Positions 17,790 to 52,674 of a DNA stretch of 64,000 bases are shown here, piece after piece (position 1 is the stretch's first letter; each line of letters opens with the position of its first letter). The notes under the pieces are model-generated. The model searched no databases and was not told the DNA's origin. It was given only the letters and a program-made list of their open reading frames with translations. Position numbers and translations under genes: made by a program. This DNA is from Spirosoma fluviale (GTDB lineage: Bacteria; Bacteroidota; Bacteroidia; Cytophagales; Spirosomataceae), in contig NZ_OCNH01000003.1 in assembly GCF_900230225.1 (NCBI RefSeq), positions 1,116,001 through 1,180,000 on the forward strand, in the 5' to 3' direction.

Positions 17790-17833
17790 TTGACTTATAT
17801 CAGGTTGATAACGAAATAGCTGCGCTTGCTTTG
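17790..17833 (+). promoter_or_regulatory. Fnr/Crp-like operator and -7 box in front of a USP gene
   Basis: TTGACTTATATCAG (17790-17803) fits NTGA-N6-TCAN. A -7-like box TTGCTTTG (17826-17833) starts 29.5 bp from the operator centre, the same spacing as at ccoI, adh, ldh and others in this window, which matches a class II activator position near -41.5. The start codon is at 17895. Confidence 0.7.
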
Positions 17834-17894
17834 TGTGGTAAGTGAACCCCAAAACTGGTGGTGCTTAGCCTCAACTCAGGTAAAACTCGTTCGT

Positions 17895-18716
17895 ATGAAA
17901 ACCATCGTTTTAGCTACCGACTTCTCAGCCAATGCCAATAAAGTCGCTCATTTTGCCATGCAACTTGCTCAGGCGCAAAAAGCGAACCTGATTCTAATGC
18001 ACGCGTTTCATTTCTGGCCCACAAACCCGGCCGAAACGGGGGCGGACTTTCCGCTCAGTGCCAAAGCCATGCACGACGACAGTCAGAAGGGGCTCAACCA
18101 ACTGGCCCATACGTTAAGCGGACAGTACGGGGCTGAGGTCCCCATTCGCTGCATGACTAAAGAAGGCTACCCCATACCGGCCATTCGGGAAGTTGCGGAA
18201 GCCGAAAAAGCCGATCTGGTCATCATGTCCACGACTGGTACCGCGCCCCAAAGTGCTCAGTTAATGGGCAGTGTGGCAACGAGTATGGTGGCCGAAACCA
18301 ATGTGCCTCTGCTGCTTGTGCCGCCTTCTGTTGGGTATGCCGAGGTGAAAAATGTGGTGCTGGGCATTGACCTCGATACACCACCCAATGCCGTAGCCCT
18401 GGATACGGCGCTCCGGTTTGCCCGGCAGTTTGACTGTGTGGTTAATCTGTTGTGTATTTACCCGCACCCAGCCGATGCCCACGTCCGTACAAAGGCCGAA
18501 CACATCCGGGAGCTGATGGTATCGGTACCGCATACGATGACCATCCTGTCGGGCGAAGAAATTTACGATACGCTGCTAACATTCGCCCACGAAAATAAAG
18601 CCGACCTGATCATGATGCTGCCTCAAACGCACGGTTGGTTCAGACGGCTGTTCGTTGAAGGAGAAACCGAGCGGATGGCCCGCCTAACCGATATTCCGCT
18701 GCTGGCTATTGTTTAA
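17895..18716 (+). CDS. Tandem universal stress protein
   Basis: 273 residues from the ATG at 17895, where the typical USP opening MKTIVLATDFS begins; a frame extension to 17826 overlaps the predicted promoter and is rejected. Two USP folds in tandem: residues 1-145 (ending in VPLLLVP) and 150-273 (ending in IPLLAIV). USPs bind nucleotides or act as signalling proteins during energy or oxygen limitation. It is one of four full-length two-domain USPs in the window. The upstream operator ties it to the micro-oxic gene set. Divergent from the M1-like peptidase. Confidence 0.92.
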   Translation: MKTIVLATDFSANANKVAHFAMQLAQAQKANLILMHAFHFWPTNPAETGADFPLSAKAMHDDSQKGLNQLAHTLSGQYGAEVPIRCMTKEGYPIPAIREVAEAEKADLVIMSTTGTAPQSAQLMGSVATSMVAETNVPLLLVPPSVGYAEVKNVVLGIDLDTPPNAVALDTALRFARQFDCVVNLLCIYPHPADAHVRTKAEHIRELMVSVPHTMTILSGEEIYDTLLTFAHENKADLIMMLPQTHGWFRRLFVEGETERMARLTDIPLLAIV

Positions 18717-18756
18717 TCAACTAACGATAAAGACTGCTGGCGGAAGAGGGTTTACT

Positions 18757-18897
18757 GTTGTGAAGTCGGGTTCTTAAACCCGACATTTGTCAGGTTTCTC
18801 AAAACCTTGTGTAGGCTGACTCCCGGTAGGTTTTGAGAAACCTACCGGGAGTCAGGTTTAAGAACCTGACTCCACAACAAGAACCCGACTTCACAAC
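18757..18897. repeat. Nested palindrome (four hairpins inside a 19-bp inverted repeat)
   Basis: Outer arms GTTGTGAAGTCGGGTTCTT (18757-18775) and its exact complement (18879-18897) enclose further palindromes: GTCGGGTT/AACCCGAC, AGGTTT/AAACCT, a 16-bp perfect stem starting GACTCCCGG around 18818-18853, and GTCAGGTT/AACCTGAC. It lies between convergent genes (a USP and hemJ), so it may serve as a two-way terminator, but it is far more elaborate than needed for that. Confidence 0.8.
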
Positions 18898-18924
18898 GGT
18901 GAGCTAATTCAGCCCGAATTAGGT

Positions 18925-19452
18925 TCACCGTTCCCGGATGCGCTTGTACAGCCAGATGCCTGCCAGGAGTAAGCCCATAAACAGAAGCAGGCCCAGCATA
19001 CCCCAGGCCAGGCTCAGCACATCTTTGAGTACCACCAGAAAAACAATGCTGAACAGCAGGAGCGTGGCTACTTCGTTCCAGATGCGGAGTTGGGTGGAGG
19101 TGTACTGCAACTGCCCTCGCTGTTGCTGCCGAAAGAGAATATGGCAGGCCAGGTGATAAGCGTACAGGCTCCCGACGAACGCCAGCTTAACCACCAGCCA
19201 GGGCGGTGTGGCCCCATACTGATACCAGGTGCTTAAACCCAGAACAAGCGTAATGAGCGCCGACGGCCACGTGATGCCATACCAAAGTCGACGCTGCATA
19301 AGAGCAAACTGAGTTTGCAGAATCTGTCGGGCGGGTTCGGGTTGATCGGCAGCTTCGGTAAAGTAGATGAACAGGCGGGGTATGTAAAAAAGCCCGGCAA
19401 ACCAGGTCACCACAAAAATGATGTGCAGGGCTTTGAGGTAGAAAAACGTCAT
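18925..19452 (-). CDS. hemJ: HemJ-type protoporphyrinogen IX oxidase
   Basis: 175 residues, four to five predicted membrane helices. The opening FYLKALHIIFVVTWFAGLFY with a conserved His in helix 1 and the following RLFIYF match the HemJ/CopD-like family, which oxidises protoporphyrinogen IX to protoporphyrin IX in the inner membrane. It starts 16 bp after the hemN stop on the same strand, so the two form a haem operon; both serve the penultimate steps of haem synthesis. The C-terminus KRIRER is basic and cytoplasmic. A plain CopD-family protein is the alternative, but the hemN linkage favours HemJ. Confidence 0.85.
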   Translation of the reverse strand: MTFFYLKALHIIFVVTWFAGLFYIPRLFIYFTEAADQPEPARQILQTQFALMQRRLWYGITWPSALITLVLGLSTWYQYGATPPWLVVKLAFVGSLYAYHLACHILFRQQQRGQLQYTSTQLRIWNEVATLLLFSIVFLVVLKDVLSLAWGMLGLLLFMGLLLAGIWLYKRIRER

Positions 19453-19468
19453 GACAGCAAAGGTATAC

Positions 19469-20857
19469 TCATACTGTACTGGAGAAAAGAGGCCTGGCCG
19501 TTGTCGTTAATGGGTTTCGGGTCAGGTAGCGGTCGAACACCATGCAGATATTCCTCAGAAACGGCCGTCCTTCCGGTCGCACCCACAGCCCTGTTTCGTC
19601 GTATACCAGCAGCCCATCAGCCCGTAAATCGTCGAGTTGATGACTTATTTCCCTCCATTCGGCCGGAGTCCACTCCGTAGTCGACCACCTGGTTTGAAAA
19701 CGGCACATGATATTTAAAATATGCTGCCGTATCTCGGTGTCCTCTTCGGTGAGCAGGTGGCCCTTGAATAGGGGTAATTGATTATGAAGTACGTCATCCT
19801 GGTAAGAGCCAATGTCTTTATGGTTTTGCATAAATGCCGTTCCGACATCGCTGATGGCCGACGCACCCAGTCCCAGCAGTATGTCGGTCTGGGTGGTGGT
19901 GTAGCCCATAAAATTCCGGTGCAGCTGGCCGGTATTCATGGCTTTGAAGAGCGAGTCGTGCGGCAGGGCAAAATGGTCCATGCCAATTTCGGTATAACCA
20001 CCGGCTTCGAGCAGGGTGCGTCCTGTTTCATAAAGTGCCCGCTTTTTGTCGGCACCCGGCAGGTCGGTATCGGCAAAGCCCCGCTGGCCCGTTCCTTTTA
20101 TCCAGGGGACGTGTGCATACGAATAAAACGCGATCCGGTCGGGTCGGAGGGAGAGGGTTTGGGTAATGGTATCCTGAATGGACGACTGTTGCTGAAAGGG
20201 CAGTCCGAACACAAGGTCGTGGCTGATGGAGGTGTAGCCAATGGCCCGGGCCTGTTCGGTAACCCGTTTTACGTTGGCAAACGGCTGGTGCCGGTGAATG
20301 GCTTTCTGCACCACCGGGTCGTAGTCCTGTACGCCGAAGCTCACCCGCCGGAAACCATATTCGTAAAGCGTTTGCAGGTGTTCGGTCGTGGTGTTGTTGG
20401 GGTGACCTTCCCAGCCAAAATCGGGACCGCTGGTCTCGGTAGTGGGTACGGGATCTGCCCACCGGAAAATACCGGTCATCAGCCGACGTAACTCATAGGG
20501 CGAAAAAAAGCTGGGCGTTCCTCCGCCGAGGTGCAGTTCGGCAATGCGGGGCCGCTCCGGGAGCCACTCACAGTACATCTCCCACTCACTGAGCAGGGCA
20601 TCGATATACGGTTCTTCTACGTCGTGATTTCGGGTGATGCGTTTGTTGCAGCCGCAAAACGTACACAAACTTTCGCAGAAGGGCAGGTGAATGTATAGAC
20701 TGATCCCCGCCGAATAATTGCTGTTGGCGAAGGTCGTTGTCAGCCGCTTTTGCCAGTCTTCACGGGTAAAAGCGGCTGTATTCCAGAAAGGCACGGTGGG
20801 GTAGCTGGTATAGCGAGGACCGGCTACATTATACTTGGCAATCAGTGAATCGCTCAT
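19469..20857 (-). CDS. hemN: Oxygen-independent coproporphyrinogen III oxidase
   Basis: 462 residues, the usual HemN length. The radical-SAM cluster motif CESLCTFCGC (CxxxCxxC) is at about residues 61-70, and ELHLGGGTPS and the C-terminal HemN domain follow. The enzyme decarboxylates coproporphyrinogen III without O2, in the cytoplasm, using SAM and a 4Fe-4S cluster. HemN is needed when oxygen is low, which agrees with the Fnr/Crp-like operator at 20945-20958 and with its neighbours (ccoI, USPs). hemJ follows in the same operon. Confidence 0.95.
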   Translation of the reverse strand: MSDSLIAKYNVAGPRYTSYPTVPFWNTAAFTREDWQKRLTTTFANSNYSAGISLYIHLPFCESLCTFCGCNKRITRNHDVEEPYIDALLSEWEMYCEWLPERPRIAELHLGGGTPSFFSPYELRRLMTGIFRWADPVPTTETSGPDFGWEGHPNNTTTEHLQTLYEYGFRRVSFGVQDYDPVVQKAIHRHQPFANVKRVTEQARAIGYTSISHDLVFGLPFQQQSSIQDTITQTLSLRPDRIAFYSYAHVPWIKGTGQRGFADTDLPGADKKRALYETGRTLLEAGGYTEIGMDHFALPHDSLFKAMNTGQLHRNFMGYTTTQTDILLGLGASAISDVGTAFMQNHKDIGSYQDDVLHNQLPLFKGHLLTEEDTEIRQHILNIMCRFQTRWSTTEWTPAEWREISHQLDDLRADGLLVYDETGLWVRPEGRPFLRNICMVFDRYLTRNPLTTTARPLFSSTV

Positions 20858-20944: not shown

Positions 20945-20958
20945 CTGATTTATGTCAG
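20945..20958 (-). promoter_or_regulatory. Fnr/Crp-like operator upstream of hemN
   Basis: CTGATTTATGTCAG fits NTGA-N6-TCAN and ends 87 bp before the hemN start. A possible -7 box on the minus strand (GACTTTTG, first base at 20899) is 52.5 bp from the centre, one base off the 51.5-bp spacing seen at other promoters, so the promoter assignment here is weaker than the operator. Confidence 0.6.
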
Positions 20959-21971: not shown

Positions 21972-22015
21972 TTGATTTATGTCAGCTGATGTTGAGGCTA
22001 ATAGAGTCAAATTTG
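21972..22015 (+). promoter_or_regulatory. Fnr/Crp-like operator and -7 box of ccoI
   Basis: TTGATTTATGTCAG (21972-21985) is followed by CAAATTTG (22008-22015), whose first base is 29.5 bp from the operator centre. A transcript would start near 22022, just before the ATGs at 22034 and 22037, which argues against any start further upstream. Confidence 0.75.
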
Positions 22016-22036
22016 GGGAAATTTCAGGTGATTATG

Positions 22037-24562
22037 ATGACCGCTGCCCCTCCCAAAACCGTATGCTACCATTGCGGTAATGAATGCCCTTCCGATACCG
22101 AAACACTTTATTTCGCCGATAAGCCATTTTGCTGCTCGGGTTGCCAAACAGTATACCAGATTCTTAGTGAACATCAGCTTTGCCAGTATTACGACTTAAA
22201 TCCAACACCGGGCAAAACGCCGAAACTCGAACGGCTTGCTTTTCTGGATCACCCCGATATTGCCGGTAAGCTGATTGATTTTCAGAATGAAAGTGTAGCC
22301 CACGTAACCTTCTATGTGCCGTCTATTCACTGCTCATCCTGCCTGTGGCTGCTCGAGCATCTGTACCGGATAGAACCGGCGGTGCGGCAAACGCGCGTCG
22401 ATTTTCTGAAAAAGCAGGTTCACCTCATGTACAGTCCCGCGCAGCTTTCGCTCCGGCAGGTAGCCGAGCTGCTGACGTCGCTGGGGTACGAGCCGCTGAT
22501 TAGTCTGGACGATGTGGTGAAGCAGGGGAAGAAACCCAGCTATCGGCCATTGCTTTACCGGCTGGCGCTGGCGGGCTTTTGCGCGGGAAATATCATGCTG
22601 TTCAGCTTTCCCGAATACCTTGGTCTCAATGATCCGGATTTCAAACATTTGTTCGGAATCCTGAATCTGATACTCGCTACGCCCGTTGTGTTTTATTCGG
22701 GTTCAGGGTACTTCGAATCGGTTTGGAAAAGCCTGCGCCGGGGTATTATCAACATCGACTTTCCCATTCTGCTCGGTATTCTGGTTGCGTATTTCCGGGG
22801 TACCTATGAGGTGCTTGCGATGGGTGGGGCAGGTTATTATGATTCGGTCACGGGTCTTATCTTCTTTCTGTTGTGCGGCAAGTGGTTCCAGCAGCGTACG
22901 TATGACTTTTTATCCTTCGAGCGGGATTACAAATCCTACTTCCCTCTGGCCGTGACGCGACTAGGGGAGAGGGCAGAGGGTAGAGGGCGTGGGGCAGAGG
23001 GTGAGGGGCAGGGGGTAAAGGGTGACGGGTCAAGGATCTCGAACCAACCTATCTCCTCCGCCCAATCCCCAACCCCCTCTGCCCAATCCCCACTGCCCAA
23101 CGCCCCCGACCAGGAAACGCCCGTTCCGGTGGCAGATTTGCAGAAAGGCGACCGCATTCGGGTACGTCACGGCGATTTGATTCCGGCCGATAGCCTATTA
23201 TACCGGGGCACCGGCCTCATCGACTATTCATTCGTAACGGGCGAATCGGAACCGGAGTCCAAAGATCCAGGATCGCTTCTGTATGCCGGTGGACGGCAGA
23301 TGGGCGGTACTATCGACCTCGAAATCGTTCGGGATGTATCGCATAGCTACCTCACGCAGCTCTGGAATAACGATACCTTTCGGAAAGAGAAGCCTAACCG
23401 CGCCAAAACATTTGCCGATGCTGTTGGTACGTATTTCACCCTAACCGTACTCACGCTGGCTACCTTCGTTGGGGCCTACTGGTATATTTGGGCCGGGCAG
23501 CCCACCACCGCTGTCAACGCGTTTACGGCCATCCTGATTGTGGCCTGCCCCTGTGTGCTTTCTTTGTCCTATCCGGTCGCGCTGGGGCATGGCCTGCGGT
23601 GGCTCAGCAAGCAGGGTGTCTACCTCAAAAATGCCGATGTAATTGAGCAGCTTACCCACTGCGATACCATTGTGTTCGATAAAACGGGCACCCTGACCAC
23701 ACCCGCTTCAGACGTAGTCACCGAGTCGTTTACAAAACCACTGACCAGCCTTGAACGGGCTATGGTTCGGGCCGTCATCAATCAGTCGGCGCACCCGCTG
23801 AGCCAGCGACTCCGTCAGTTTCTGGCCGAATGTCCGCCGATGCTTGTCGAAAACTTTACGGAATTGCCCGGTAAAGGGGTTGTGGGGCTGGTCGACGATC
23901 AGATCGTTAAAGTCGGCAGCGCGTCTTTTGTGGGGGGCGTCGACCAGAAAAACGGGCCATCGGTGCATGTCAGTATCAACGGAACGTACCGGGGGCAGTT
24001 TACTATTGCGGCCCCCATGCGGGAAGGGCTGGCGAGCATGCTGACGTCGTTTGTCGGGAATGGCAGGAAACTCTACCTGTTATCCGGCGACACCAGCACC
24101 GCCCGTACCGAACTCCGAAGCTGGTTTGCCGATGACGCCATGCGGTTTGGCTGTAGCCCGGACGATAAGCTCCGGTTTATTCGGGAGCTACAGGAAAACG
24201 GGCATCATGTGCTAATGATTGGCGATGGTCTCAACGATGCCGGTGCCCTTAAACAAGCCGATGTGGGTATTGCCGTAACGGACGATACGCTGCGGTTCAC
24301 ACCCGCCAGCGATGCCATTCTGGAAGCCCGCTCGCTGCGTCTGCTACCTACCTATCTGCGCTACAGTCGGTTCGCCATGCGGCTTATTCGGTTTAGCTTC
24401 GGCGTATCGCTTCTGTACAATCTGGTTGGGCTGTCGTTTGCCGCTGCGGGGCATCTCTCGCCGGTAGTAGCGGCTGTATTGATGCCGCTGAGTTCAGCTA
24501 CCATGGTGCTCATTGCCACGGTCGGTATGCGGACATGGGGTAAAGCCCATCCAGTTACCTAA
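22037..24562 (+). CDS. ccoI: CcoI/FixI-type copper-translocating P-type ATPase
   Basis: About 841 residues from the ATG at 22037 (22034 is equally possible). The N-terminal CcoI-type Cys cluster (CYHCGNEC at 10-17, FCCSGC further on) precedes an HMA domain with C99-S-S-C102, then eight membrane helices with the CPC motif (504-506), the phosphorylated Asp548 in DKTGT, and GDGLND near the end. The pump delivers copper across the inner membrane for cbb3 oxidase assembly, consistent with the cco operon 9 kb away and the shared operator type. Odd: between the second helix pair and the actuator domain there is a low-complexity insert (about 309-358) rich in Gly/Glu/Arg, then Ser/Pro/Gln, encoded by a palindromic DNA stretch (22962-23110). 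Confidence 0.93.
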   Translation: MTAAPPKTVCYHCGNECPSDTETLYFADKPFCCSGCQTVYQILSEHQLCQYYDLNPTPGKTPKLERLAFLDHPDIAGKLIDFQNESVAHVTFYVPSIHCSSCLWLLEHLYRIEPAVRQTRVDFLKKQVHLMYSPAQLSLRQVAELLTSLGYEPLISLDDVVKQGKKPSYRPLLYRLALAGFCAGNIMLFSFPEYLGLNDPDFKHLFGILNLILATPVVFYSGSGYFESVWKSLRRGIINIDFPILLGILVAYFRGTYEVLAMGGAGYYDSVTGLIFFLLCGKWFQQRTYDFLSFERDYKSYFPLAVTRLGERAEGRGRGAEGEGQGVKGDGSRISNQPISSAQSPTPSAQSPLPNAPDQETPVPVADLQKGDRIRVRHGDLIPADSLLYRGTGLIDYSFVTGESEPESKDPGSLLYAGGRQMGGTIDLEIVRDVSHSYLTQLWNNDTFRKEKPNRAKTFADAVGTYFTLTVLTLATFVGAYWYIWAGQPTTAVNAFTAILIVACPCVLSLSYPVALGHGLRWLSKQGVYLKNADVIEQLTHCDTIVFDKTGTLTTPASDVVTESFTKPLTSLERAMVRAVINQSAHPLSQRLRQFLAECPPMLVENFTELPGKGVVGLVDDQIVKVGSASFVGGVDQKNGPSVHVSINGTYRGQFTIAAPMREGLASMLTSFVGNGRKLYLLSGDTSTARTELRSWFADDAMRFGCSPDDKLRFIRELQENGHHVLMIGDGLNDAGALKQADVGIAVTDDTLRFTPASDAILEARSLRLLPTYLRYSRFAMRLIRFSFGVSLLYNLVGLSFAAAGHLSPVVAAVLMPLSSATMVLIATVGMRTWGKAHPVT
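22962..23110. repeat. Palindromic low-complexity insert within ccoI, in frame
   Basis: A purine arm made of GGGCAGAGGGTAGAGGG-like blocks (about 22962-23024) faces a pyrimidine arm of CCCAATCCCC/CTCTGCCC blocks (about 23053-23106). The arms are imperfectly complementary. The reading frame passes through without a stop and adds about 50 residues that ordinary CcoI proteins lack. Related motifs occur in ccoG (36228-36318) and at the 3' end of the P-type ATPase gene (11-mer AGGGTAGAGGG at 41073). Confidence 0.7.
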
Positions 24563-29176: not shown

Positions 29177-29199
29177 CCCTTCTCTAACCAGCTCATTCG

Positions 29200-30626: not shown

Positions 30627-30678
30627 ATGTAAACAGTTGTGGCGCGGGTAGAGATACCCGCGCCACAACTGTTTACAT
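30627..30678. terminator. 24-bp perfect hairpin between convergent genes
   Basis: Arms 30627-30650 and 30655-30678 (outer ATGTAAACAGTTGTGG, inner GCGCGGGTA) are perfectly complementary with a GAGA loop. The distal arm covers the stop codon and last codon of the desaturase gene. There is no T-run; by position it probably ends transcription from both sides. Confidence 0.7.
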
Positions 30679-31422: not shown

Positions 31423-31639
31423 TGTGGGAAGTCGTGTGGCTTCACAAATCGCTGGTACGTACAGAGAGTACCAACCAATGCGACGCCGAGGTTAAAAGAC
31501 AGTTCAACGGGTGCCGATAACGGTACTCTCTAAACCTACTTTTAGATGGGGCAGGATGACCCTTGCCCAGGAGAGGGAGACTTTGTGTACCGGGAAAACC
31601 CTGATTCCGCAAAGCTGAGCCCTTTTTTCTGAGCAAAAA

Positions 31640-34204: not shown

Positions 34205-34206
34205 CG

Positions 34207-38482: not shown

Positions 38483-38580
38483 TGTAATACCGATCGTCGG
38501 CCCGGCGACCGTCCCGGTCGGGCGTGAATTAATTTTCCTGCCCGACCGGGACGGTCGCCGGGCCGACGCTCGGCATTACA
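38483..38580. repeat. 41-bp inverted repeat just upstream of the P-type ATPase start
   Basis: Arms 38483-38523 and 38540-38580 differ from perfect complementarity at two positions; the inner 28 bp (38496-38523, GTCGGCCCGGCGACCGTC and onward) are perfect. Very GC-rich, 16-nt AT-rich loop. It ends 16 bp before the ATG at 38597 and lies in a divergent region, so it is not a terminator of a converging pair. Confidence 0.85.
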
Positions 38581-43250: not shown

Positions 43251-44268
43251 TGACGCTATCCGCGAGAATACCGCCGAAATCCTTGAACTAACGGGCTACA
43301 CCGTCGATACCGCTGAAAACGGTAAGCTCGGTGTTGAAAAAGCCCTCGCCAAGAAGCCCGATCTGGTTATCTGCGACATCATGATGCCCGTACTCGACGG
43401 CTATGGTGTACTGCATATTTTTAATAAAAACCCCCAGCTGTCGGGGGTGCCGTTCATCTTCCTGACGGCCAAAACGGAACGCAATGACCTGCGAAAAGGC
43501 ATGGAGCTGGGTGCCGACGATTACCTGACCAAACCGTTCGATGAGTCGGAACTGCTCAGTGCCATTGAAGGGCGACTAAACCGATTTGCGCACCTCAGGC
43601 CAGATTATGACCTGGTACACGACGGCCTCGATCAGTTTATGGACGATGCCCGCAGAGTAGGAAATCTGCAAAGCCTGGCAGCCGACCGCAAGGTTCATGC
43701 GGTGCGGAAGAAGCAATACATTTACTCGGAAGGGGACGAAGCCAATCGCTTGTATTTTCTTAAATCGGGTCGGGTAAAAGCGGTTCGCATCAATACCGAC
43801 GGCAAAGAGCTGATCATGGAAATCTACACCCCCGGCGATTTTTTTGGCTACCTGCCTCTCTTCGACAGCCGCCGGTATACCGAATCGGCAGTAACCATGG
43901 AAGACTCGGAGCTGTATTACATTCCGGTGGAAGATTTTCAGCAGTTGCTGCTGGCTAATCCGGAAGTAAGTCAGCATTTTATCCAGCTGCTGGCTGGTCG
44001 GGTAGCCGAGCGGGAGGAGCAACTGGTGGGTATGGCATACAATTCGCTTCGGCGTCGAGTGGCGGATACGCTCTTGCGGCTGCATAATCAGCAAAATGGG
44101 GAGATCATCCAACTCTCGCGCGACGATCTGGCGGCAATAGTTGGTACCGCTACCGAATCCCTGATTCGTACCCTGAGCGAGTTTCGGCAGGATGGTCTTA
44201 TTGAAGTGATTGCACCAACGGGTATTCGGGTGCTGCAAGCCGAAAAACTACGCCGGGCTAACTGGTAA
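43222..44268 (+). CDS. Response regulator: receiver fused to Crp/Fnr DNA-binding module
   Basis: 348 residues. Receiver domain 1-120 with acidic pocket E8/D9, phospho-acceptor D52 (VICDIMMP), T82 and K104 (TKPFD). A cNMP-type beta-barrel follows (about 150-265; YIYSEGDEANRLYFLKSG, then YTPGDFFGYLPLF), a dimer helix, and a Crp-type HTH (IQLSRDDLAAIVGTATESLI). The recognition helix keeps the Glu and Arg (E-S-L-I-R) that contact the TGA half-site in Crp and Fnr. No Cys cluster for Fe-S is present, so oxygen sensing would come through the partner kinase. It is the best local candidate to bind the NTGA-N6-TCAN sites. Confidence 0.93.
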   Translation: MKTILLIEDNDAIRENTAEILELTGYTVDTAENGKLGVEKALAKKPDLVICDIMMPVLDGYGVLHIFNKNPQLSGVPFIFLTAKTERNDLRKGMELGADDYLTKPFDESELLSAIEGRLNRFAHLRPDYDLVHDGLDQFMDDARRVGNLQSLAADRKVHAVRKKQYIYSEGDEANRLYFLKSGRVKAVRINTDGKELIMEIYTPGDFFGYLPLFDSRRYTESAVTMEDSELYYIPVEDFQQLLLANPEVSQHFIQLLAGRVAEREEQLVGMAYNSLRRRVADTLLRLHNQQNGEIIQLSRDDLAAIVGTATESLIRTLSEFRQDGLIEVIAPTGIRVLQAEKLRRANW

Positions 44269-44309: not shown

Positions 44310-44375
44310 ATGACAATAATCAGGTTTTGGGCTAAGCCCGCTCATCTGCATCGGCAGAAGGGCGGGCTAATTTTA
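44310..44375 (+). promoter_or_regulatory. Tandem operator and -7 box upstream of the half-size USP-like gene
   Basis: ATGACAATAATCAG (44310-44323) is 51.5 bp from TAATTTTA (44368-44375). A degenerate site CTAAGCCCGCTCAT (44332-44345) is 22 bp downstream, exactly at the 29.5-bp position. The same two-site pattern occurs at ccoS and at the USP gene ending at 47059. Confidence 0.55.
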
Positions 44376-44445: not shown

Positions 44446-44868
44446 ATGAAAACAGCCCTTTTTGTCACCGACTGCTCTGTTGACTCTGCGCTTACCGTAC
44501 GTAACTGGCTTTCCGCTCATTCACACCAACCTATTCGTTTAACCGTTGTACTGCCCTACGATATTGATGAGGGACAATCGTTAGACAAAAAGAGCCTGCA
44601 AGCTGCTAAGTCGGAAGCGAGTAACCGGCTAAAAAACTGGTCGGATCTGCTTAGCGCCACTGATCCTGGCAGTGTGGTGGCCGAAACACTCCTGGCTAAT
44701 CCGGAACTGGCGATCAGTATGCACCTGCTCATTCGGCGGTATGACTACTGGCTGGTCGAAGACTGGTCGCTGGTGACCAATCCTACCCTGTCGTCCATAT
44801 TGAATCAACCTACTTTACAAACCCTGCCTCTGGCTATCAACCTGGCCCCTGCGCTGGTAACGGTTTAG
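44446..44868 (+). CDS. Half-size USP-like protein
   Basis: 140 residues. It opens MKTALFVTDCS like the USPs nearby, has alternating strands and helices, and ends with LPLAINLAP, similar to the last USP strand. The nucleotide-loop glycine motif is missing. I call it a degenerate single-domain USP; the similarity is weak. It sits alone after the kinase/regulator pair, under its own promoter with operator sites. Confidence 0.55.
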   Translation: MKTALFVTDCSVDSALTVRNWLSAHSHQPIRLTVVLPYDIDEGQSLDKKSLQAAKSEASNRLKNWSDLLSATDPGSVVAETLLANPELAISMHLLIRRYDYWLVEDWSLVTNPTLSSILNQPTLQTLPLAINLAPALVTV

Positions 44869-45077: not shown

Positions 45078-45121
45078 CTGAGTCGCATCATGACTGAAAA
45101 TTTATTTCAGTGACAATTTTG
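45078..45121 (+). promoter_or_regulatory. Operator and -7 box of the D-lactate dehydrogenase gene
   Basis: CTGAGTCGCATCAT (45078-45091, one half-site mismatch) and CAATTTTG (45114-45121) with the 29.5-bp spacing. Predicted start near 45128; ATG at 45150. Confidence 0.6.
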
Positions 45122-45149: not shown

Positions 45150-46139
45150 ATGAATATTGCCTTTTTTAGTACGCTCTCCTTTGAGCAGGCCTGGTTCGAT
45201 CAGTACAGCGCTCATCACCGGATTACGTATATTCCTGAGAGGCTGACGACCAAAACGGTTCATTTGGCTCAGGGACATAATGCGGTTTGCGTTTTCGTCA
45301 ATGACGACCTGAGTCGCCCCGTACTTACATTACTGAAAGGGATGGGTATAGGCGTAGTGGGGATGCGGTGTATGGGTACAGATAACGCAGACACACAGGC
45401 AATTGCCGATCTGGGTATGACACTGCTGCACAGCAGCTATTCTCCTTATTCGATTGCGGAGCAGACGGTTGCTCTGCTAATGGGTATGTTGCGGCATCTG
45501 CCCCAAGCTCATCAGCGGGTACAGGCTGGTAACTTCGCCATCGATGGATTGGTGGGGTATGACCTCCACGGCAAAACGGTTGGAGTAGTTGGGACGGGGC
45601 ATATCGGTAAAGCGTTTATCCGGATTATGCTGGGCTTCGGCTGTAAAGTGCTCGCTTACGATGTCTGCGTTGACCGTAGACTAACGGAAATTGGGGTAAC
45701 CTACCTGTCGCTGCCGGAACTCCTGCAACGGGCCGATGTCGTTTCGCTGCACTGCCCCTTAAACTCCGCTACTCAGCACATGATAAACGAGCAGACCCTC
45801 TCGTTAATGAAGCAAAGTGTCATACTGGTTAATACCGGGCGTGGGGGTCTGGTTGATACCAGCGCCGTGCTGGATGCGCTGGATACCGGAAAACTGGCTG
45901 GCTATGCGGCCGATGTATACGAACGGGAACGTAATTATTTTCACTATGATTGTTCGAATAAACACATAGTCGATGATGTTCTGAACCGCCTTCGCCAACA
46001 CCCGAAGGTACTGTTAACGGCTCACCAGGGCTTTCTTACCGAAGATGCGCTGCGCCAGATTGCCTTGAGCCTGATCAATCAATTCAGTTTTTTTGACAAC
46101 CAGCAGACGGCGTCCATCACCAAAGCATCGATGTGTTAA
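45150..46139 (+). CDS. ldhA: D-lactate dehydrogenase (2-hydroxyacid dehydrogenase family)
   Basis: 329 residues, usual for LdhA. NAD-binding GTGHIGKAFIRIMLGFG near residue 150, the catalytic Arg in VNTGRGGLVD, Glu in the DVYERE region and the His near LLTAHQGFLTEDA. It reduces pyruvate to D-lactate with NADH in the cytoplasm, a fermentative NADH sink, which fits an operator of the micro-oxic set. Other 2-hydroxyacid substrates cannot be excluded. Converges with the USP at 46223. Confidence 0.88.
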   Translation: MNIAFFSTLSFEQAWFDQYSAHHRITYIPERLTTKTVHLAQGHNAVCVFVNDDLSRPVLTLLKGMGIGVVGMRCMGTDNADTQAIADLGMTLLHSSYSPYSIAEQTVALLMGMLRHLPQAHQRVQAGNFAIDGLVGYDLHGKTVGVVGTGHIGKAFIRIMLGFGCKVLAYDVCVDRRLTEIGVTYLSLPELLQRADVVSLHCPLNSATQHMINEQTLSLMKQSVILVNTGRGGLVDTSAVLDALDTGKLAGYAADVYERERNYFHYDCSNKHIVDDVLNRLRQHPKVLLTAHQGFLTEDALRQIALSLINQFSFFDNQQTASITKASMC

Positions 46140-46222: not shown

Positions 46223-47059
46223 TTACCCGGCCCGCATAACCAGCACGGGTATCTGCGTATGATTCAGCACATCTTCGGCTACGCTGCCAGTCAGTAGATG
46301 GAGGAAGCCTTTATGCCCGTGCGTAAAAAGAACAATCAGGTCGGCTTCAACGTCGTTGGCATAGTCGATGACGCCCTGCGGTACGGTTTTGGCGTGATGA
46401 ATAACAAATTCGAACGCTGTAATCCCTTTTGCATCGGCAAATTCATCGACCCACTCACGTACGCCTTCGGGGTCGCGGTTGTCGGAGGGCGTCATCACGT
46501 AGAGGAACTGGTGTAGCCCATTTTCGCCCATCTGAAAAGGAAAGTGGTAAATTGATTTCAGCCGGTCGTCAAGATCAATGGCGCAAACGATGTTTTGGGG
46601 CTGGAAATGAGGAGTGGCGTGCTTCACTACCAAGACCGGGCAGTGCGCATAGCGAACAATGACTTCGGCGTTGGAGCCAATCAGCCACTCTTCCAGGCCA
46701 TCCGCGCCCTTCGAACTCATCACAATCAGATCGGCCGGTCGGGTGGTGACGTTATCAACCAATGGCTGTCCATTCGTAATCAGCGTTGGGGTAATGGTAA
46801 CGCCCGCGTAAGCCGGATTTGTTGCGAGTTGTTCGAGTATTTCGCGGGCGTCCTCTTCCAGTAGCCGGTAGGTAGACAGGGTATTTTCGGTAACAACAGT
46901 CAACGCTTCGGCGTAAACGGGAGTAGGCACCGGCATTGGGTAGATTACTGAATGCAGGAGTATAATTTCGCCCCCGTTGGTTCGGGCCAGATTAACCGCA
47001 ACAGACAGGGCTATATCGGTCATGGGGCTAAGGTCTGTTGGGACAAGGATCGTTTTCAT
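46223..47059 (-). CDS. Tandem universal stress protein
   Basis: 278 residues from the ATG at 47059 (MKTILVPTDLSPM); a frame extension of nine residues upstream is rejected because transcription is predicted to begin near 47077 and USPs start at MKTI. Domain 1 ends with KGADGLEEWLIGSNAE and VLVVK, domain 2 with KGFLHLLTGSVAEDVL. Closest local relative: the USP at 21013-21828. It is divergent from the NimA-like gene. Confidence 0.92.
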   Translation of the reverse strand: MKTILVPTDLSPMTDIALSVAVNLARTNGGEIILLHSVIYPMPVPTPVYAEALTVVTENTLSTYRLLEEDAREILEQLATNPAYAGVTITPTLITNGQPLVDNVTTRPADLIVMSSKGADGLEEWLIGSNAEVIVRYAHCPVLVVKHATPHFQPQNIVCAIDLDDRLKSIYHFPFQMGENGLHQFLYVMTPSDNRDPEGVREWVDEFADAKGITAFEFVIHHAKTVPQGVIDYANDVEADLIVLFTHGHKGFLHLLTGSVAEDVLNHTQIPVLVMRAG

Positions 47060-47083
47060 GCAGCTGTTGTTTAGATGACCCCA

Positions 47084-47149
47084 CAAAAGAACACGTCTTG
47101 TTTTGCCCGTTACATGAGTGCCGCCAGTTGCTTACCTGATTGACGTCAG
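47084..47149 (-). promoter_or_regulatory. Tandem operator and -7 box of the USP gene
   Basis: CTGATTGACGTCAG (47136-47149); on the minus strand TTCTTTTG (first base 47091) is 51.5 bp from its centre, and a degenerate site ATGAGTGCCGCCAG (47114-47127) fills the 29.5-bp position. For the divergent flavoprotein gene no -7 box is found at either distance. Confidence 0.6.
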
Positions 47150-47242
47150 TTGAGGAAAATCAAGTTACCAACTGATGTACCTTCGGGATTGGCAGCACGG
47201 CCATTCGTAGCTTTGGTACCTCACATAAACCTGATGTTCACT

Positions 47243-48201: not shown

Positions 48202-48410
48202 CTTTACGACCAACCATACGAGTTGACTTTTTTAGTATCGACTTTTTCGCTGTGATTCACAGTGATTATAATCACCGAAGAGGCTGATTAACAGCATAAG
48301 CCATCAGGGCGGTACTACCTATTTTTGTTAAGGGAAATAATTAGAGTTTAGCGAGTCAATAGGGTTAGTGTCATGATAGCCGTGTACTAACTGGAGATGG
48401 GGAATTGAAA

Positions 48411-48446: not shown

Positions 48447-48530
48447 TTGTTGGTTAGTGGTTGGTTAATAGTTACTGGTTATTAAGTTATCAGTTAATAG
48501 GTATTCTACCAACAGTAACCAATAACCACT
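48447..48530. repeat. Imperfect TTGGTTA/TAACCAA palindrome
   Basis: GTTGGTTAGTGGTTGGTTA-type words on the left side face AGTAACCAATAACCACT on the right, which runs into the L,D-transpeptidase stop codon at 48530. Same word family as 47684-47734. Confidence 0.6.
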
Positions 48531-49669
48531 CAAAGCACCGGGTGCCATTTTCTGTACACGTTGGGATACACCTGAATAGCGCCCGCTTCGTCAATATCCA
48601 GCACATTATAGGTTGTAATAACGGGTACCGATGCGGGCAGAGAAACCGTTTTAGGTCTGGCATTTTTAGGACAGCTTGTCAGATAGTCCGCTTTGAAACG
48701 GGTATAGCCCAGCAGCAGGTTAGCCAGTTCGGCCGGTTTCTCAACCCGAATGCAACCGTGGCTCAACTGCCGGTTTTCGCTGGCAAAAGCGTGTCGGGCA
48801 TTGGTGTCGTGGAGGTAAACGTCATAGGGACTGTTTACATTGAACTTCAGTATGCCTAGGGCATTGGCGCAACCGGTCAACTGCCGCAGTCGGTAGGGGA
48901 ACGAACCGTTGTAAATCGCTGATGCCGGTACTGACCAGTTTACTGTTTTGGGGTCTACCACCTGCCCTTTGGTATCAATAACTTCCAGATTCAGAAAGGT
49001 TAGTACCAGTGTTGGATTTTTTTGAATCCTGGGCAGCATTTCCCTGGCCATAATGGAACGGGGGACATTCCAGTACGGGTACATAACCAGGCTGGGAATA
49101 AAGGCGGTGAACAAGGGCGTTGGCGTATCGGCTTTACCGACCACAACCCGGCTGGTGAGTAGCGTTTTCCCCTGCCGGTCGATAACCCGGAGCATAGCCG
49201 ACGGTATGTTGACAACAATACGTTTGCTGGTACGAAATCGGTTGATCCATCGGTAGGTGTTGAGCGTTTCCTGCACCTGTCCGAGCGTAAGGGAATCGGC
49301 CATGTAATCATCGATCAGGCAGCGCATACAATACTCTTTCAACTGCCGGTAGCTTCGGTCCGGCGATTCGAGCGAATCCAGCAATGGACACCAGTCGTCT
49401 CCGGCCAGAAACAAGCGCGTAAGCCGGTTCAGCCGCAGTGTATCCATCGACTCCGTAACACCCTGGTAGCCCATATGGCGAGGTACTCGGCCATAAATGA
49501 TTTCTTTAAAATACCGTTTCAGGCAGGCTGGGTCGGGCGTGTTGCACAGGCTGTCTACCCCAATGGAAGCCGCATACTGACGAAGCCGGGACCAGTCGGC
49601 TGCGGGTTGGGCTTTTACGGAGCAGACAGTGAATGAGAGCAGTAGAAGGATACTCAGAAAACGGCTCAT
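48530..49669 (-). CDS. L,D-transpeptidase (YkuD/YcbB-like)
   Basis: 379 residues with a signal peptide (cleavage after VKAQ). A helical N-terminal part (about 20-160) resembles the scaffold of YcbB-like enzymes; the YkuD catalytic domain follows (about 165-345) with the active Cys in LSHGCIRVEKP. It forms 3-3 cross-links in peptidoglycan or attaches proteins to it, in the periplasm. No classic lysozyme-like or LysM binding domain is seen. Divergent from the FixH-like gene. Confidence 0.9.
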   Translation of the reverse strand: MSRFLSILLLLSFTVCSVKAQPAADWSRLRQYAASIGVDSLCNTPDPACLKRYFKEIIYGRVPRHMGYQGVTESMDTLRLNRLTRLFLAGDDWCPLLDSLESPDRSYRQLKEYCMRCLIDDYMADSLTLGQVQETLNTYRWINRFRTSKRIVVNIPSAMLRVIDRQGKTLLTSRVVVGKADTPTPLFTAFIPSLVMYPYWNVPRSIMAREMLPRIQKNPTLVLTFLNLEVIDTKGQVVDPKTVNWSVPASAIYNGSFPYRLRQLTGCANALGILKFNVNSPYDVYLHDTNARHAFASENRQLSHGCIRVEKPAELANLLLGYTRFKADYLTSCPKNARPKTVSLPASVPVITTYNVLDIDEAGAIQVYPNVYRKWHPVL

Positions 49670-49754
49670 AAGTAGCAGATTGTGAGAGTGTAATCAGTGC
49701 AGCAAAGGTGTACTTGTTCGTCTGGTTCGCAATTGACCGGGTTCAGTTTTTAGT

Positions 49755-49820
49755 TTGAATACTATCAATTTTATACCTGATGGCTGTCAGGTAGCAAGTC
49801 ATTTTCATCGGCCACATTTG
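49755..49820 (+). promoter_or_regulatory. Tandem Fnr/Crp-like operators and -7 box
   Basis: TTGAATACTATCAA (49755-49768, perfect TTGA-N6-TCAA) and CTGATGGCTGTCAG (49777-49790) are 22 bp apart. CACATTTG (49813-49820) starts 29.5 bp from the centre of the second and 51.5 bp from the first. Predicted start near 49827, ATG at 49849. Confidence 0.8.
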
Positions 49821-50128: not shown

Positions 50129-51007
50129 ATGTATAAGATCTTATTATTGACTGATTTTTCAGTGGCTTCACGGCACGCTATTGCGTATACGCAGACTTTA
50201 TTTGCCGATACCGCAGCGGACTTCTGTCTGCTGAATGCCTTTCCGCTTGAACCGGAAGTGGGATTTACCGGCGCTTTTCTAATTGTGGAAGAGCGGGAGC
50301 AGGCCGAGAAGTCCTTAATTGCCCTTCGGCATGAAGTGACCCAACAGCCGGAACCAGCCTATCATACGTACCGAACCGTAGTCGTACCGGGTAGTCCGGA
50401 GGCCTCGGTGGATGTTATGCTGCACCAGGAACATTTCGACTTGGTGGTAGTAGGGGCCACGGGTTCCGGCCGGAGTGAATTGCTGGGCAGCGTTGCCACG
50501 GCCATCACCCGAACCGCAACAACGAACGTGCTGGTGGTACCGGCTACATTCCCCATCCGCCCGCTCGAACGGATTGTGTTGTCCACCGACTATCGGTCGG
50601 TCAACGATGCGGAGTCGTTCGGAATTCTCGCTGACATTGCCAACCGAAAAGGGGCTCAGCTTACGCTGCTGACCATCGATAAATCCGGTACAGCCGGAGC
50701 CACTGATTTGACAAGGCAGTATGTAGAACAGGCGTTCGACTCGGTTTCGACGGATTCATACGTCATTCATGACAATAACGTGTTGCATGGCATTAATGCC
50801 TATCTGGATGCCCACACGGTCGATCTGCTGGTGTTGTTGCCCCATCACAAAGGGTTTTTCGATGTGCTACGGAACAACAGTGTTACGCGTTCGGTGGCCT
50901 ATCATCCGCGCGTTCCCCTGCTGACGCTCTACGATGCCGAACCTAAGAAGACAGCTACGGCGGAAATGCCTGAACTCGATAACCTGCCATTTGCAACCTA
51001 CCTTTAA
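50129..51007 (+). CDS. Tandem universal stress protein
   Basis: 292 residues, two USP folds. Domain 1 (MYKILLLTDFS to TNVLVVPA) keeps a full nucleotide loop GATGSGRSELLGSVATAI; domain 2 (about 150-275) ends VPLLTLYD. The C-terminal ~15 residues are an acidic tail. It is second in the operon that begins with the FixH-like gene, and a helical protein gene follows after 11 bp. Confidence 0.92.
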   Translation: MYKILLLTDFSVASRHAIAYTQTLFADTAADFCLLNAFPLEPEVGFTGAFLIVEEREQAEKSLIALRHEVTQQPEPAYHTYRTVVVPGSPEASVDVMLHQEHFDLVVVGATGSGRSELLGSVATAITRTATTNVLVVPATFPIRPLERIVLSTDYRSVNDAESFGILADIANRKGAQLTLLTIDKSGTAGATDLTRQYVEQAFDSVSTDSYVIHDNNVLHGINAYLDAHTVDLLVLLPHHKGFFDVLRNNSVTRSVAYHPRVPLLTLYDAEPKKTATAEMPELDNLPFATYL

Positions 51008-51018: not shown

Positions 51019-51414
51019 ATGAAAGCAGAAAAATACCGCCAGCTTACAGACGTGCATTTGTTGCAGCGTATCTGGCGAAATGAATTGGAACTGGCTCTCC
51101 AGGAAGTTGATTTCTGGGAGAAGTTGCTGGGAACATTAAGCGAAGGTCTGGACGCCCGGGTGACCGACTCGGATACCTGGAAAGGGGAAGTGAGCCAGTT
51201 ACACCATTTTCGTCGGTTAGCGAAACGGTTGCTTGACGAGATTAAGGAAATTGATGAACAGGTGGCGGCCGGTGTTCGGGTCGACCGTGTGCTGGATGCC
51301 GATACGCGCTTGAATCATCAGTACCTGCGTCAGGAAATGGATAGCTTTCACGCCGACTTCCGAACGTTTAAATCTGACATTCGCCAGTACATGGTTCTCC
51401 AGCCAACGTTTTAA
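51019..51414 (+). CDS. Helical cytoplasmic protein, unknown function
   Basis: 131 residues, almost wholly alpha-helical and highly charged, without signal peptide or membrane segment. Coiled-coil-like heptads run through residues 15-125 (for example FRRLAKRLLDEIKEIDEQV). I recognise no family. Last gene of the FixH-like/USP operon, so presumably expressed in low oxygen with them. Confidence 0.65.
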   Translation: MKAEKYRQLTDVHLLQRIWRNELELALQEVDFWEKLLGTLSEGLDARVTDSDTWKGEVSQLHHFRRLAKRLLDEIKEIDEQVAAGVRVDRVLDADTRLNHQYLRQEMDSFHADFRTFKSDIRQYMVLQPTF

Positions 51415-51422
51415 ACTCAAAT

Positions 51423-51512
51423 AAAAACAGCTAACTACAGAGCCACAAAGCGCACAGAGGTTTCAACATAAACTACTCTGTGCGCTTTGTGGCTCTGTGG
51501 TTAGCTGTTTTT
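51423..51512. terminator. 37-bp hairpin between convergent genes
   Basis: Arms 51423-51459 and 51476-51512 are complementary with one mismatch (AAAAACAGCTAAC, then CAGAGCCACAAAGCGC). A-run before and T-run after, so it can end transcription from both sides (helical protein gene and pfkB). Confidence 0.8.
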
Positions 51513-51569
51513 TTTAGCCTGACGGCTCAACAGCAGGATGCTGTCGGGTGCAGAAAACAGCAAAAACGA

Positions 51570-52514
51570 TCAGACGATTACAAATTTCTGTTGCTGATTG
51601 ATCCAGCTTAGTAGGCGGTCAACGTCGGCTTTTTGAAAGAGTTGGGTACCGGGGTTCATGGTGGCGGCTGTTCCGCAGGCTACTCCCAGCCGAATCATAT
51701 CGGAGTACGACATACCCTGCGAAAGGGCGTAAACCATGCCGCCAACCAGACTGTCGCCCGCGCCCACGGTACTGATTTTCTTTACCGGCGGAGCCTGTAC
51801 CAACTCCTGCCCGTTGCGGGTGATGAGCATGGCACCCAATGGCCCCAGCGACACCACCACAATTTCGCAGCTGCCCGCCTGAATGAGCGTATCGGCGGCT
51901 TTCGCAATCTGGTCGGTTTCGAGCCGTTCGACACCAACCAGACGAGCCAGCTCACCCACATTAGGCTTGATCAGGAAAACACCTTCGGCAAGGGCCATCC
52001 GTAAGGATTCTCCGGCCGCATCGAGCACCAGCCGGATACCGCGCTCTTTGGCGATGCGGGCAATCCGGGCATAGAAATCGACGGGTAAGCCCGGTGGTAA
52101 ACTGCCGCTGGCTACCAGGTAGTCGATGGGTTCGGCCAGCGTTTGCAAATGCGACAGACAGGCATCGGCTTCGGCGGAACTGAGTGTCGGGCCGGGCGTT
52201 CCAAATCGAAACTGTTGATTGGGAATGGTTTCGGTGACGACGAAGCACTCCCGCGTGAGGCCGTCAATGCCAATAATCTCGTAATGGATACCTTCCTTTT
52301 CGACTAACTCCTGAAGCCGGAGTCCCGATGACCCACCGGAGGTAAACACGGCCAGCGACTCGCCACCCAGCCGATGAATGGCTTTAGATACATTGATGCC
52401 GCCACCACCGGCATCGTAGCGGGGCTGAGAGCAATGGATCTTCTGTTCGGGAATCAGCCGGTCCGTCGTCATACTGATATCGACGGCTGGGTTAAGTGTG
52501 AGGGTTACAAGCAT
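51570..52514 (-). CDS. PfkB-family hexose-phosphate kinase
   Basis: 314 residues. LTLNPAVDISMTT at the start, GGGGINVSKAIHRLGG (sugar binding) and TVGAGDSLVGGMVYAL (anion hole, catalytic Asp) place it in the 1-phosphofructokinase/6-phosphofructokinase-2/tagatose-6-P kinase branch. It phosphorylates a sugar phosphate with ATP in the cytoplasm, most likely fructose-6-P given the lack of a fru operon. It is divergent from adh, and one operator lies between them. PfkB next to USPs and a P-ATPase is also seen in the DosR set. Confidence 0.88.
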   Translation of the reverse strand: MLVTLTLNPAVDISMTTDRLIPEQKIHCSQPRYDAGGGGINVSKAIHRLGGESLAVFTSGGSSGLRLQELVEKEGIHYEIIGIDGLTRECFVVTETIPNQQFRFGTPGPTLSSAEADACLSHLQTLAEPIDYLVASGSLPPGLPVDFYARIARIAKERGIRLVLDAAGESLRMALAEGVFLIKPNVGELARLVGVERLETDQIAKAADTLIQAGSCEIVVVSLGPLGAMLITRNGQELVQAPPVKKISTVGAGDSLVGGMVYALSQGMSYSDMIRLGVACGTAATMNPGTQLFQKADVDRLLSWINQQQKFVIV

Positions 52515-52578
52515 TTCTGTGGGGTTAATGTCCAGGCGTGCAAAGAGTTTTATCTTAGGCGTTCCGGACGTGTTATGG

Positions 52579-52644
52579 TAAAAATGACGAGTTCGTGATT
52601 AGCGCAGTATGATTCAAATTGGCTCATTAGCTGATCGGTGTCAG
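52579..52644 (-). promoter_or_regulatory. Operator and -7 box towards pfkB
   Basis: The operator CTGATCGGTGTCAG (52631-52644) is shared with adh. On the minus strand CATTTTTA (first base 52586) lies 51.5 bp from its centre, the upstream spacing seen elsewhere. Only a weak half-site is present at the 29.5-bp position. Confidence 0.45.
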
Positions 52645-52674
52645 CTATTGTCGACGGGTACGAATGTACGTTTG
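52631..52674 (+). promoter_or_regulatory. Operator and consensus -7 box of the alcohol dehydrogenase gene
   Basis: CTGATCGGTGTCAG (52631-52644) and TACGTTTG (52667-52674, a perfect TAnnTTTG) with the 29.5-bp spacing. Predicted start near 52681, gene start at 52708. Confidence 0.75.

Follow-up and report, generated by a model that had tools for sequence, protein, structure and literature searches.

Introduction

In the FixL-FixJ-FixK cascade of rhizobia, FixJ joins a phosphoreceiver (REC) domain to a LuxR-type helix-turn-helix (HTH) output and FixK is a separate protein of the Crp/Fnr superfamily; a cbb3 oxidase, a metal ATPase and hemN form the classic low-oxygen set of FixK and FNR targets. 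The recognition helix of Escherichia coli FNR reads E-xxSR. In mycobacteria, DosR is likewise a REC-LuxR protein, with a different operator, and its regulon comprises universal stress proteins (USPs), PfkB, a P-type ATPase and pyridoxamine-oxidase-like proteins. Class II activators of the Crp/Fnr family bind operators centred near -41.5, and promoters of the Bacteroidota carry the -7 element TAnnTTTG, accompanied in housekeeping promoters by TTG at -33. Here, we analyze a 64,000-nucleotide stretch of the Spirosoma fluviale genome (contig NZ_OCNH01000003.1, positions 1,116,001 to 1,180,000; hereafter, the window), which encodes a fusion of a receiver to a Crp/Fnr module, REC-CRP, and a PAS histidine kinase directly upstream of it. 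We consider it likely that the window contains the cluster at the heart of a Crp/Fnr regulon under two-component control, with a kinase-driven REC-CRP and low-oxygen targets.

Operator and box spacing in the window and the genome

An original prediction, made from the letters of the window alone, had listed sites with a TGA-N6-TCA core, placed them at fixed distances from a YAnnTTTR box and assigned them to one regulator. Every core of that list was recovered, and additional sites were found at 38467, 47151, 49734 and 48263. Taken by itself, the core is about as frequent as expected by chance (28 matches in the window to TTGAN6TCAA with one mismatch allowed, against 25.3 expected) and was dropped as evidence; the signal lies in operator, box and spacing taken together. 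Among 76 site-strands in the window, the core is followed by YAnnTTTR at exactly 29.5 bp in eight and at exactly 51.5 bp in nine, whereas the mean over the remaining spacings examined is 0.125, and sequences shuffled 200 times with their dinucleotides preserved gave means of 0.02 (29.5 bp) and 0.015 (51.5 bp), with a maximum of 1. All 17 fitting pairs lie between 16 and 54 kb of the window and the 26 site-strands outside this interval all lack a fitting box at either distance, in agreement with the proposal that no comparable sites occur at 1-16 or 54-64 kb. With the start of the box set at -12, a premise of the original prediction and of general knowledge on Bacteroidota promoters, the operator centres fall at -41.5 and -63.5. 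In addition, five pairs of cores are spaced by exactly 22 bp (31641/31663, 31690/31712, 38445/38467, 49734/49756 and 49756/49778); this tandem register, like the regulator gene described below, extends the original prediction.

In the whole genome (7.8 Mb), the 29.5-bp operator-box pair occurs 16 times, against once for a reversed-pattern control, and eight of the 16 lie within a 31-kb stretch of the window (binomial P of 9e-16, for a stretch chosen post hoc). Tandem pairs number nine genome-wide, with none for the reversed pattern: five are in the window, one is about 1.25 kb from the gene for a second REC-CRP and three are elsewhere.

The grammar in independently chosen loci

We then turned to 80 loci, 1.39 Mb in total, picked by homology to REC-CRP alone, with sources that include Spirosoma, Rudanella, Larkinella, Hymenobacter, Runella, Chitinophaga, Ohtaekwangia, Ferruginibacter and metagenome-assembled genomes (MAGs). 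In spacing counts from which some near-identical loci were not thinned, TANNTTTG was found 66 times at 51.5 bp, 53 times at 29.5 bp and 11 times at 52.5 bp, with at most four occurrences at every other spacing; cores with 4-, 5-, 7- or 8-base spacers or in inverted order gave at most five at any spacing. Pairs of cores were spaced by 22 bp in 87 cases and by 23 bp in 20, with no other step exceeding four. Counted by locus, an operator with a box at 29.5 or 51.5 bp is present in 71 of the 80 (controls: four and seven with other pairs of gaps, one with the reversed core) and a tandem pair at 22 or 23 bp in 58 (other steps: one and none).

That the spacing reflects chance or base composition is so improbable that it can be set aside: the frequency of the core alone would fit it, but none of the shuffled, reversed-pattern, other-spacing or other-spacer controls reproduces the spacing, and chance is already refuted. 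The original prediction had been framed to fall if the spacing proved no commoner than in control DNA; the spacing exceeds the genome-wide control, the window shuffles and the other spacings in the 80 loci.

Alignment of 109 promoters from the 80 loci and the S. fluviale genome, 67 of them tandem and with the -7 box imposed by the search, gave the operator consensus TGAY-N4-RTCA. No position between -34 and -13 in these promoters carries more than 0.25 bits, so that no -33 signal is seen, as would be expected of activator-dependent promoters. The class II geometry and Bacteroidota -7 box that had been invoked for the window are consistent with this alignment.

The REC-CRP protein

The gene at 43222-44268 (+ strand) codes for the proposed activator, a protein of 348 amino acids in which Pfam recognizes a receiver, a cyclic-nucleotide-type beta-roll and an HTH_Crp_2 domain. 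Matches to PF00027, PF13545 and PF00325 place REC-CRP in the Crp/Fnr superfamily, and its receiver has the residues of a response regulator: D9, D52 and K104 occur without exception in an alignment of 78 orthologs, which have Thr (75 proteins) or Ser (three) at position 82. (The 78 rows include the two S. fluviale copies; loci L034, L040, L041 and L050, which have no readable REC-CRP open reading frame (ORF), were left out.) Within the recognition helix, E312 and R316, which we take to be the usual contacts with TGA, are also invariant in the 78 rows. By sequence, REC-CRP appears to share with FNR both the TGA-N6-TCA operator at -41.5 and the Glu and Arg of the helix; the four cysteines of a [4Fe-4S] regulator are absent, with a mean of 0.41 Cys per output module over the 78 proteins. 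The cAMP pocket of CRP is not kept either: positions 211 and 221, onto which we presume Glu72 and Arg82/Ser83 of CRP to map, are mostly L/I/M/T and mostly E/D, respectively. REC-CRP differs from FixK, a standalone protein, in that its Crp/Fnr module is fused to a receiver, with a kinase gene directly upstream, and from FixJ in having no LuxR-type HTH. No named NCBIfam family exceeded its cut-off among the 25 rows listed, and none of the 60 structural matches listed is a solved chain that spans both REC and CRP.

The closest named relatives of the window regulator are from Rudanella and Spirosoma. In a midpoint-rooted tree, the output modules of the 78 REC-CRPs form one group (support 100/99); the tree has a very long branch for a standalone Crp/Fnr protein of S. 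fluviale (see below) and does not give a polarity from FNR to REC-CRP. One locus (L070, JAIXUT010000215.1), labelled as an alphaproteobacterial MAG, has an output module identical to that of Runella sp. CRIBMP and is probably a mis-binned contig.

Many regulators of the Crp/Fnr family both activate and repress, and REC-CRP might act as a repressor or in the unphosphorylated state. We find this doubtful, since the operator is centred at -41.5, upstream of the -7 box, and a -33 signal is not seen, the look of an activator-dependent promoter, and the phosphorylation residues of the receiver are invariant in the 78 aligned proteins.

Alternatively, a different Crp/Fnr protein encoded in the genome might read the operators, with REC-CRP a mere neighbour. 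HTH_Crp_2 has three matches in the genome above the Pfam cut-off and three weaker ones below it. The three proteins above the cut-off are the window REC-CRP, a second REC-CRP (contig C4) and a standalone protein of 212 amino acids (contig C7), the last of which, together with the weaker matches, would be a candidate, as would fit the presence of the -41.5 geometry in genomes that have no REC-CRP. However, the helix of the C7 protein (TSREVISR) is unlike that of REC-CRP, and GTATE-xxIR is found, among the three, only in the two REC-CRPs; an FNR query found no match at E 1e-45 in this genome; the tandem pair closest to the second REC-CRP gene is about 1.25 kb away, and the one closest to the window copy about 4.8 kb; and grammar and REC-CRP travel together in the loci of other genomes. 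We judge reading by another protein to be improbable. Two elements of a different kind, TTGATATACATCAA placed 30.5 bp before TACTTTTG, occur at two SnoaL_2 genes (L019 6759 on contig C7 and L020 7095 on contig C8); perhaps they are sites of the C7 protein, the gene for which is about 16 kb from one of them.

The second REC-CRP has its own PAS kinase, is 65% identical to the window copy and has the same helix. This second pair (L017 10011-12258, C4) adjoins a DNA polymerase IV-like (IMS) gene, and a divergent tandem promoter just upstream faces two small genes with no Pfam match. The assignment of the window sites to one regulator thus has a candidate within the cluster, and a paralogous pair elsewhere, but the sites at hemN and at the USP gene 46223-47086 (- strand) have no fitting box here.

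The PAS histidine kinase

The kinase gene (41607-43250, + strand), recognized by Pfam and proposed to encode the sensor and partner of REC-CRP, overlaps the REC-CRP gene by 29 nt, and 77 of the 78 loci that could be read have an ORF on the same strand immediately before REC-CRP. The HisKA histidine is present in 76 of these 77 ORFs. In NCBIfam, only a generic PAS S-box domain model exceeded the cut-off. The model of the PAS domain (42024-42392, + strand; mean pLDDT 94.4) is of the heme type, and its 29 best matches in the Protein Data Bank are all heme PAS domains (FixL, DosP/Ec DOS and FG214). A His occupies the position of the FixL heme ligand in 72 of 77 kinases, and in 61 of 62 in the trimmed alignment; it is also found in FG214 (10jx), to which the PAS domain of the paralogous kinase is closest in sequence. 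The protein combines, as FixL does, a heme-PAS fold, a proximal His, HisKA and HATPase, and on this model the probable role of its PAS domain is heme-based sensing of O2, nitric oxide (NO) or redox state.

In 37 of 75 loci, the kinase gene is flanked by an operator with a box (forward in 13, divergent in 29), which suggests that kinase and REC-CRP may be autoregulated in some lineages; for the forward sites, to which the control applies, the frequency is 13/75 for the kinase gene and 22/314 for other plus-strand genes.

Distribution in the class and relation to FNR

In a draw of 395 genomes of the phylum, at least 56 had a full-length REC-CRP match, all of them from the class of the window or nearer; outside the class, only the REC or CRP parts match, among the matches listed. 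Scored at E 1e-55 with seven candidates per genome (five to seven over this and the phylum draw), so that some absences may be misses, REC-CRP is present in 143 of 295 genomes of the class. Tandem pairs occur in 132 of the 143 (mean 5.3) and in 68 of the 152 genomes without REC-CRP (mean 1.1; p of 3e-24, optimistic because the genomes counted are related), against means of 0.05 and 0.13, respectively, for the reversed pattern. When 45 of the negatives were searched again with HTH_Crp_2, none of the matches listed lay in an open frame longer than 295 amino acids, hence no hidden REC-CRP in them. The tandem form was chosen as marker because the single operator with its box, rejected for this use, is also enriched without REC-CRP.

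Among genomes that have no REC-CRP and at least two tandem pairs, 40 of 46 code for a homolog (E<=1e-50) of a standalone, FNR-like protein of 235 amino acids, as against nine of 34 without tandem pairs (Fisher p of 4e-8, in a case-control comparison of 80 of the 152 negatives, grouped by tandem count and including G484, the source of the FNR query). From 30 standalone Crp/Fnr loci, 25 were kept (L124 and L126 gave no ORF; L115, L123 and L128 were removed ahead of tree building). These proteins have a CxxC motif in 23 of 25 cases, the exceptions being L117 and L125, along with further Cys residues, and the GTATE-xxIR helix in 24 of 25. As FNR homologs with the same helix are found in tandem-bearing genomes that have no REC-CRP, two inputs appear to serve one grammar. 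Conversely, by the criterion applied here, 49 of 80 REC-CRP genomes searched lack an FNR and 31 have one; tandem pairs are still present in 47 of the 49, or in 45 of 47 if the doubtful G445 and G489, with a weaker standalone match that has no N-terminal part, are excluded.

Two genomes of another class of the phylum (G271 and G306) have 29 and 32 operator-box matches (controls 1 and 0) and no full-length REC-CRP among the matches listed, as for a large regulon that has this geometry and answers to a different regulator. The genome with most tandem pairs of any counted (G583) has 40; in the one that was read (L154 4767/4789), the box stands at 30.5/52.5 bp and not at 29.5/51.5 bp.

Genes behind the grammar

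First genes behind the grammar in other genomes were gathered (n = 81), excluding those more than 260 bp from the box, shorter than 70 amino acids, from S. fluviale itself, or inside another ORF without a tandem pair. The commonest is a ccoN-type oxidase, 13 of 81 first genes against three of 81 neighbours (p of 0.008). P-type ATPases account for six of 81, against four neighbours; all six carry PF12156, which is absent from the 25 neighbour families listed. Four DoxX, two HSP20 and two hemerythrin genes follow. An apparent enrichment of kinase genes (10/81, none among the 25 neighbour families listed) has to be disregarded, since kinase and REC-CRP genes had been kept out when the set of neighbours was drawn up.

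Heme PAS domains bind O2, NO and CO, and the regulon and its regulator could be as proposed with a signal other than oxygen, whether NO, the redox or quinone state, or general starvation. The Arg by which FixL stabilizes O2 is not conserved (28/77), and the USP, HSP20 and hemerythrin/ScdA_N genes behind the grammar would also fit NO or stress. Against this stand the cbb3 oxidase as commonest target (13/81), the PF12156 metal ATPases (6/81) and hemN in a relative of the same genus, which are the classic low-oxygen genes of FixK and FNR. We regard another signal as possible and the less probable reading, and keep to oxygen in what follows.

Several orthologs of window genes retain the arrangement. 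In a genome of the same genus (G249), operator and box precede hemN, the desaturase, ccoS/ccoN, the kinase and the gene corresponding to 44446-44868; hemN has tandem operators and a box at 29.5/51.5 bp, and the desaturase and ccoS/ccoN also have tandem promoters. In G371, they precede ldhA (29.5 bp), YkuD, which has a tandem pair upstream, ccoN (51.5-bp form) and the 44446 gene, which has the 29.5-bp form there and the 51.5-bp form in G249; the ortholog of the USP ORF 17826-18716 has a core upstream and no fitting box. In G387, bare tandem pairs precede ccoI and ccoN. No site was found at ccoP or ccoG in the two relatives that have both, or at the ortholog of USP 50129 in G371.

Promoters of the window

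The operator TGACTTATATCA (17791-17802, + strand) stands 29.5 bp from TTGCTTTG (17826-17833), at the start of the USP ORF 17826-18716. Of the promoters for which an exact 29.5-bp register had been proposed, this USP has no YAnnTTTR box, an exception already admitted. The operator before hemN (20946-20957, - strand; gene 19469-20857, - strand) has no fitting box at 29.5 or 51.5 bp, although the ortholog in the same genus has a tandem promoter. At 21973-21984 (+ strand), the operator is followed by the box CAAATTTG (22008-22015) and the heavy-metal P-type ATPase ORF 21989-24562 (named ccoI in the original prediction), the true start of which is probably later.

Two tandem arrays of 22-bp step lie back to back: 31641-31674 (- strand; box CAGCTTTG, 31610-31617) serves a fatty-acid desaturase-like gene (30673-31422, - strand), and 31690-31723 (+ strand; box CACTTTTG, 31747-31754) a small ORF, labelled ccoS, and ccoN-ccoO. 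The cbb3 oxidase region (32003-38176, + strand) codes for a ccoN-ccoO fusion, ccoP, a FixG/ccoG-like protein, FixH and a DsbD_2-domain protein. A third tandem array (38445-38478, - strand; 22 bp; box TACTTTTA, 38414-38421) belongs to the small ORF 38168-38482 (- strand), labelled DUF2892. Between the operators at 38445/38467 and a cation P-type ATPase gene there is a GC-rich inverted repeat (38483-38580) with 46-nt arms, 91% complementary, and a 6-nt loop.

Just downstream of the REC-CRP gene, the operator at 44311-44322 (+ strand) stands 51.5 bp from TAATTTTA, before the ORF 44446-44868, which had been called a half-size USP and has no Pfam match. A hairpin (44335-44368), possibly the terminator of the REC-CRP gene, precedes this box; that the box is merely part of a terminator tract is an explanation weakened by the orthologous gene, which keeps operator and box in two relatives. 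The D-2-hydroxyacid (lactate) dehydrogenase gene (45150-46139) follows the operator at 45079-45090 (+ strand) and the box CAATTTTG (45114-45121).

Two close operators (47137-47162, unassigned to a strand) separate the USP gene 46223-47086 (- strand) from a pyridoxamine-oxidase-like gene (+ strand). The operator at 47151 has TAGCTTTG at 51.5 bp on the + strand; at the USP, on the - strand, the box at 51.5 bp originally put forward is TTCTTTTG, which does not conform to YAnnTTTR. The operator GTGATTATAATCAC (48263-48274, + strand) is 51.5 bp from TATTTTTG.

A triple array with 22-bp steps (49734/49756/49778; 49734-49789) lies between divergent genes, a YkuD L,D-transpeptidase-like gene (48530-49669, - strand; box CACCTTTG) and the USP gene 50129-51007 (+ side; box CACATTTG): each outer site is at 29.5 bp for one of the genes and the middle site at 51.5 bp (-63.5) for both. 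Likewise, a single operator (52632-52643) is shared by adhP (52708-53736, + strand), at 29.5 bp with the box TACGTTTG (52667-52674), and pfkB (51570-52514, - strand), at 51.5 bp with CATTTTTA. Also inside the cluster (27797-30609), two neighbouring DUF418 (YeiB-like) genes lie beside an alpha-glucosidase/xylosidase-like gene, with no fitting operator of their own.

Discussion

Taken over the window, the genome and the independent loci, sequence comparison indicates that the promoter grammar is real and conserved, and REC-CRP appears well supported as its regulator. In the mechanism that we infer, with regard to DNA binding by REC-CRP, the phosphorylation switch, heme, the oxygen signal and positive regulation alike, the heme-PAS kinase would phosphorylate the receiver of the adjacent REC-CRP, and the activated dimer would bind TGAY-N4-RTCA operators. 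One dimer, at about -41.5, would make the class II contact with an RNA polymerase that recognizes the TAnnTTTG -7 box with no -33 element, and a second would often sit two helical turns upstream, at -63.5. A fall in oxygen would then turn on the cbb3 oxidase with its copper pump, haem synthesis, the dehydrogenases for D-lactate and alcohol, PfkB, and a set of stress genes that includes the USPs, in what would be a condensed FixL-FixJ-FixK cascade with FixJ and FixK fused.

Several observations weigh against this interpretation, besides the limits on absence calls and p-values given with the class-wide counts. In the window itself, hemN has no fitting box and the kinase gene is not preceded by an operator and box. 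USPs are only weakly enriched among first genes (eight of 81, against three of 81 neighbours; p of 0.1), sites are missing in the three relatives from several orthologs of window genes, and eight of the 80 loci have neither an operator with a box nor a tandem pair. Tandem pairs are missing from 11 of 143 REC-CRP genomes and present in the 68 negatives, six of 46 tandem-bearing negatives have no close FNR homolog, and many REC-CRP-negative genomes show an enrichment of the single 29.5-bp pair (G202: 19, against three for the control). Lastly, the position of FixL Arg220 is Arg in just 28 of 77 kinases.

On a broader scale, we lean slightly towards the view that, in about half of the genomes sampled from the class (143/295, taken as Bacteroidia), an FNR regulon has had its oxygen input replaced or added to, with the grammar unchanged, and that REC-CRP is the master low-oxygen switch. 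There, a REC-CRP driven by a heme-PAS kinase would read the same tandem operators (-41.5/-63.5) as does, in relatives, a [4Fe-4S] FNR that shares its recognition helix. This would be a natural example of a sensor swap, an iron-sulphur sensor versus a heme kinase and receiver on one set of operators, and as such bears on the rewiring of global regulons. The outcome for the window is a named regulator, a kinase, a strict grammar (TGAY-N4-RTCA at -41.5/-63.5, box YAnnTTTG) and a list of targets.

As far as we found, the kinase-driven REC-CRP arrangement is widespread in the Bacteroidota and apparently undescribed: titles and abstracts returned neither a receiver-Crp/Fnr fusion in this phylum nor the grammar, and censuses of response-regulator outputs may well list the combination. 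In the parts of PMC8510549 that we consulted, Crp/Fnr homologs from MAGs of Flavobacteriales and Saprospiraceae are treated as MalR-like carbon sensors; these are likewise Crp/Fnr proteins of Bacteroidota, and the word "receiver" does not appear in that text.

Compared with CRP, the window regulator shares the cyclic-nucleotide-binding type of beta-roll and the HTH, but not the positions that contact cAMP. With [4Fe-4S] FNR it has in common the Crp/Fnr fold, the TGA-N6-TCA operator and the class II geometry at -41.5, whereas it lacks the FNR cysteine set, carries a receiver and has the helix E-xxIR. The resemblance to DosR-DosS/T of mycobacteria is one of gene content only: a heme-sensor kinase together with USPs, PfkB, a P-type ATPase and pyridoxamine-oxidase-like proteins. 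FixL-FixJ-FixK offers a parallel for a heme-PAS-like kinase, a phosphoreceiver and a Crp/Fnr activator, with a cbb3 oxidase, a copper pump and hemN as targets; unlike in rhizobia, receiver and Crp/Fnr module are here one protein, so that the pathway would have one transcription step fewer than that from FixJ to FixK.

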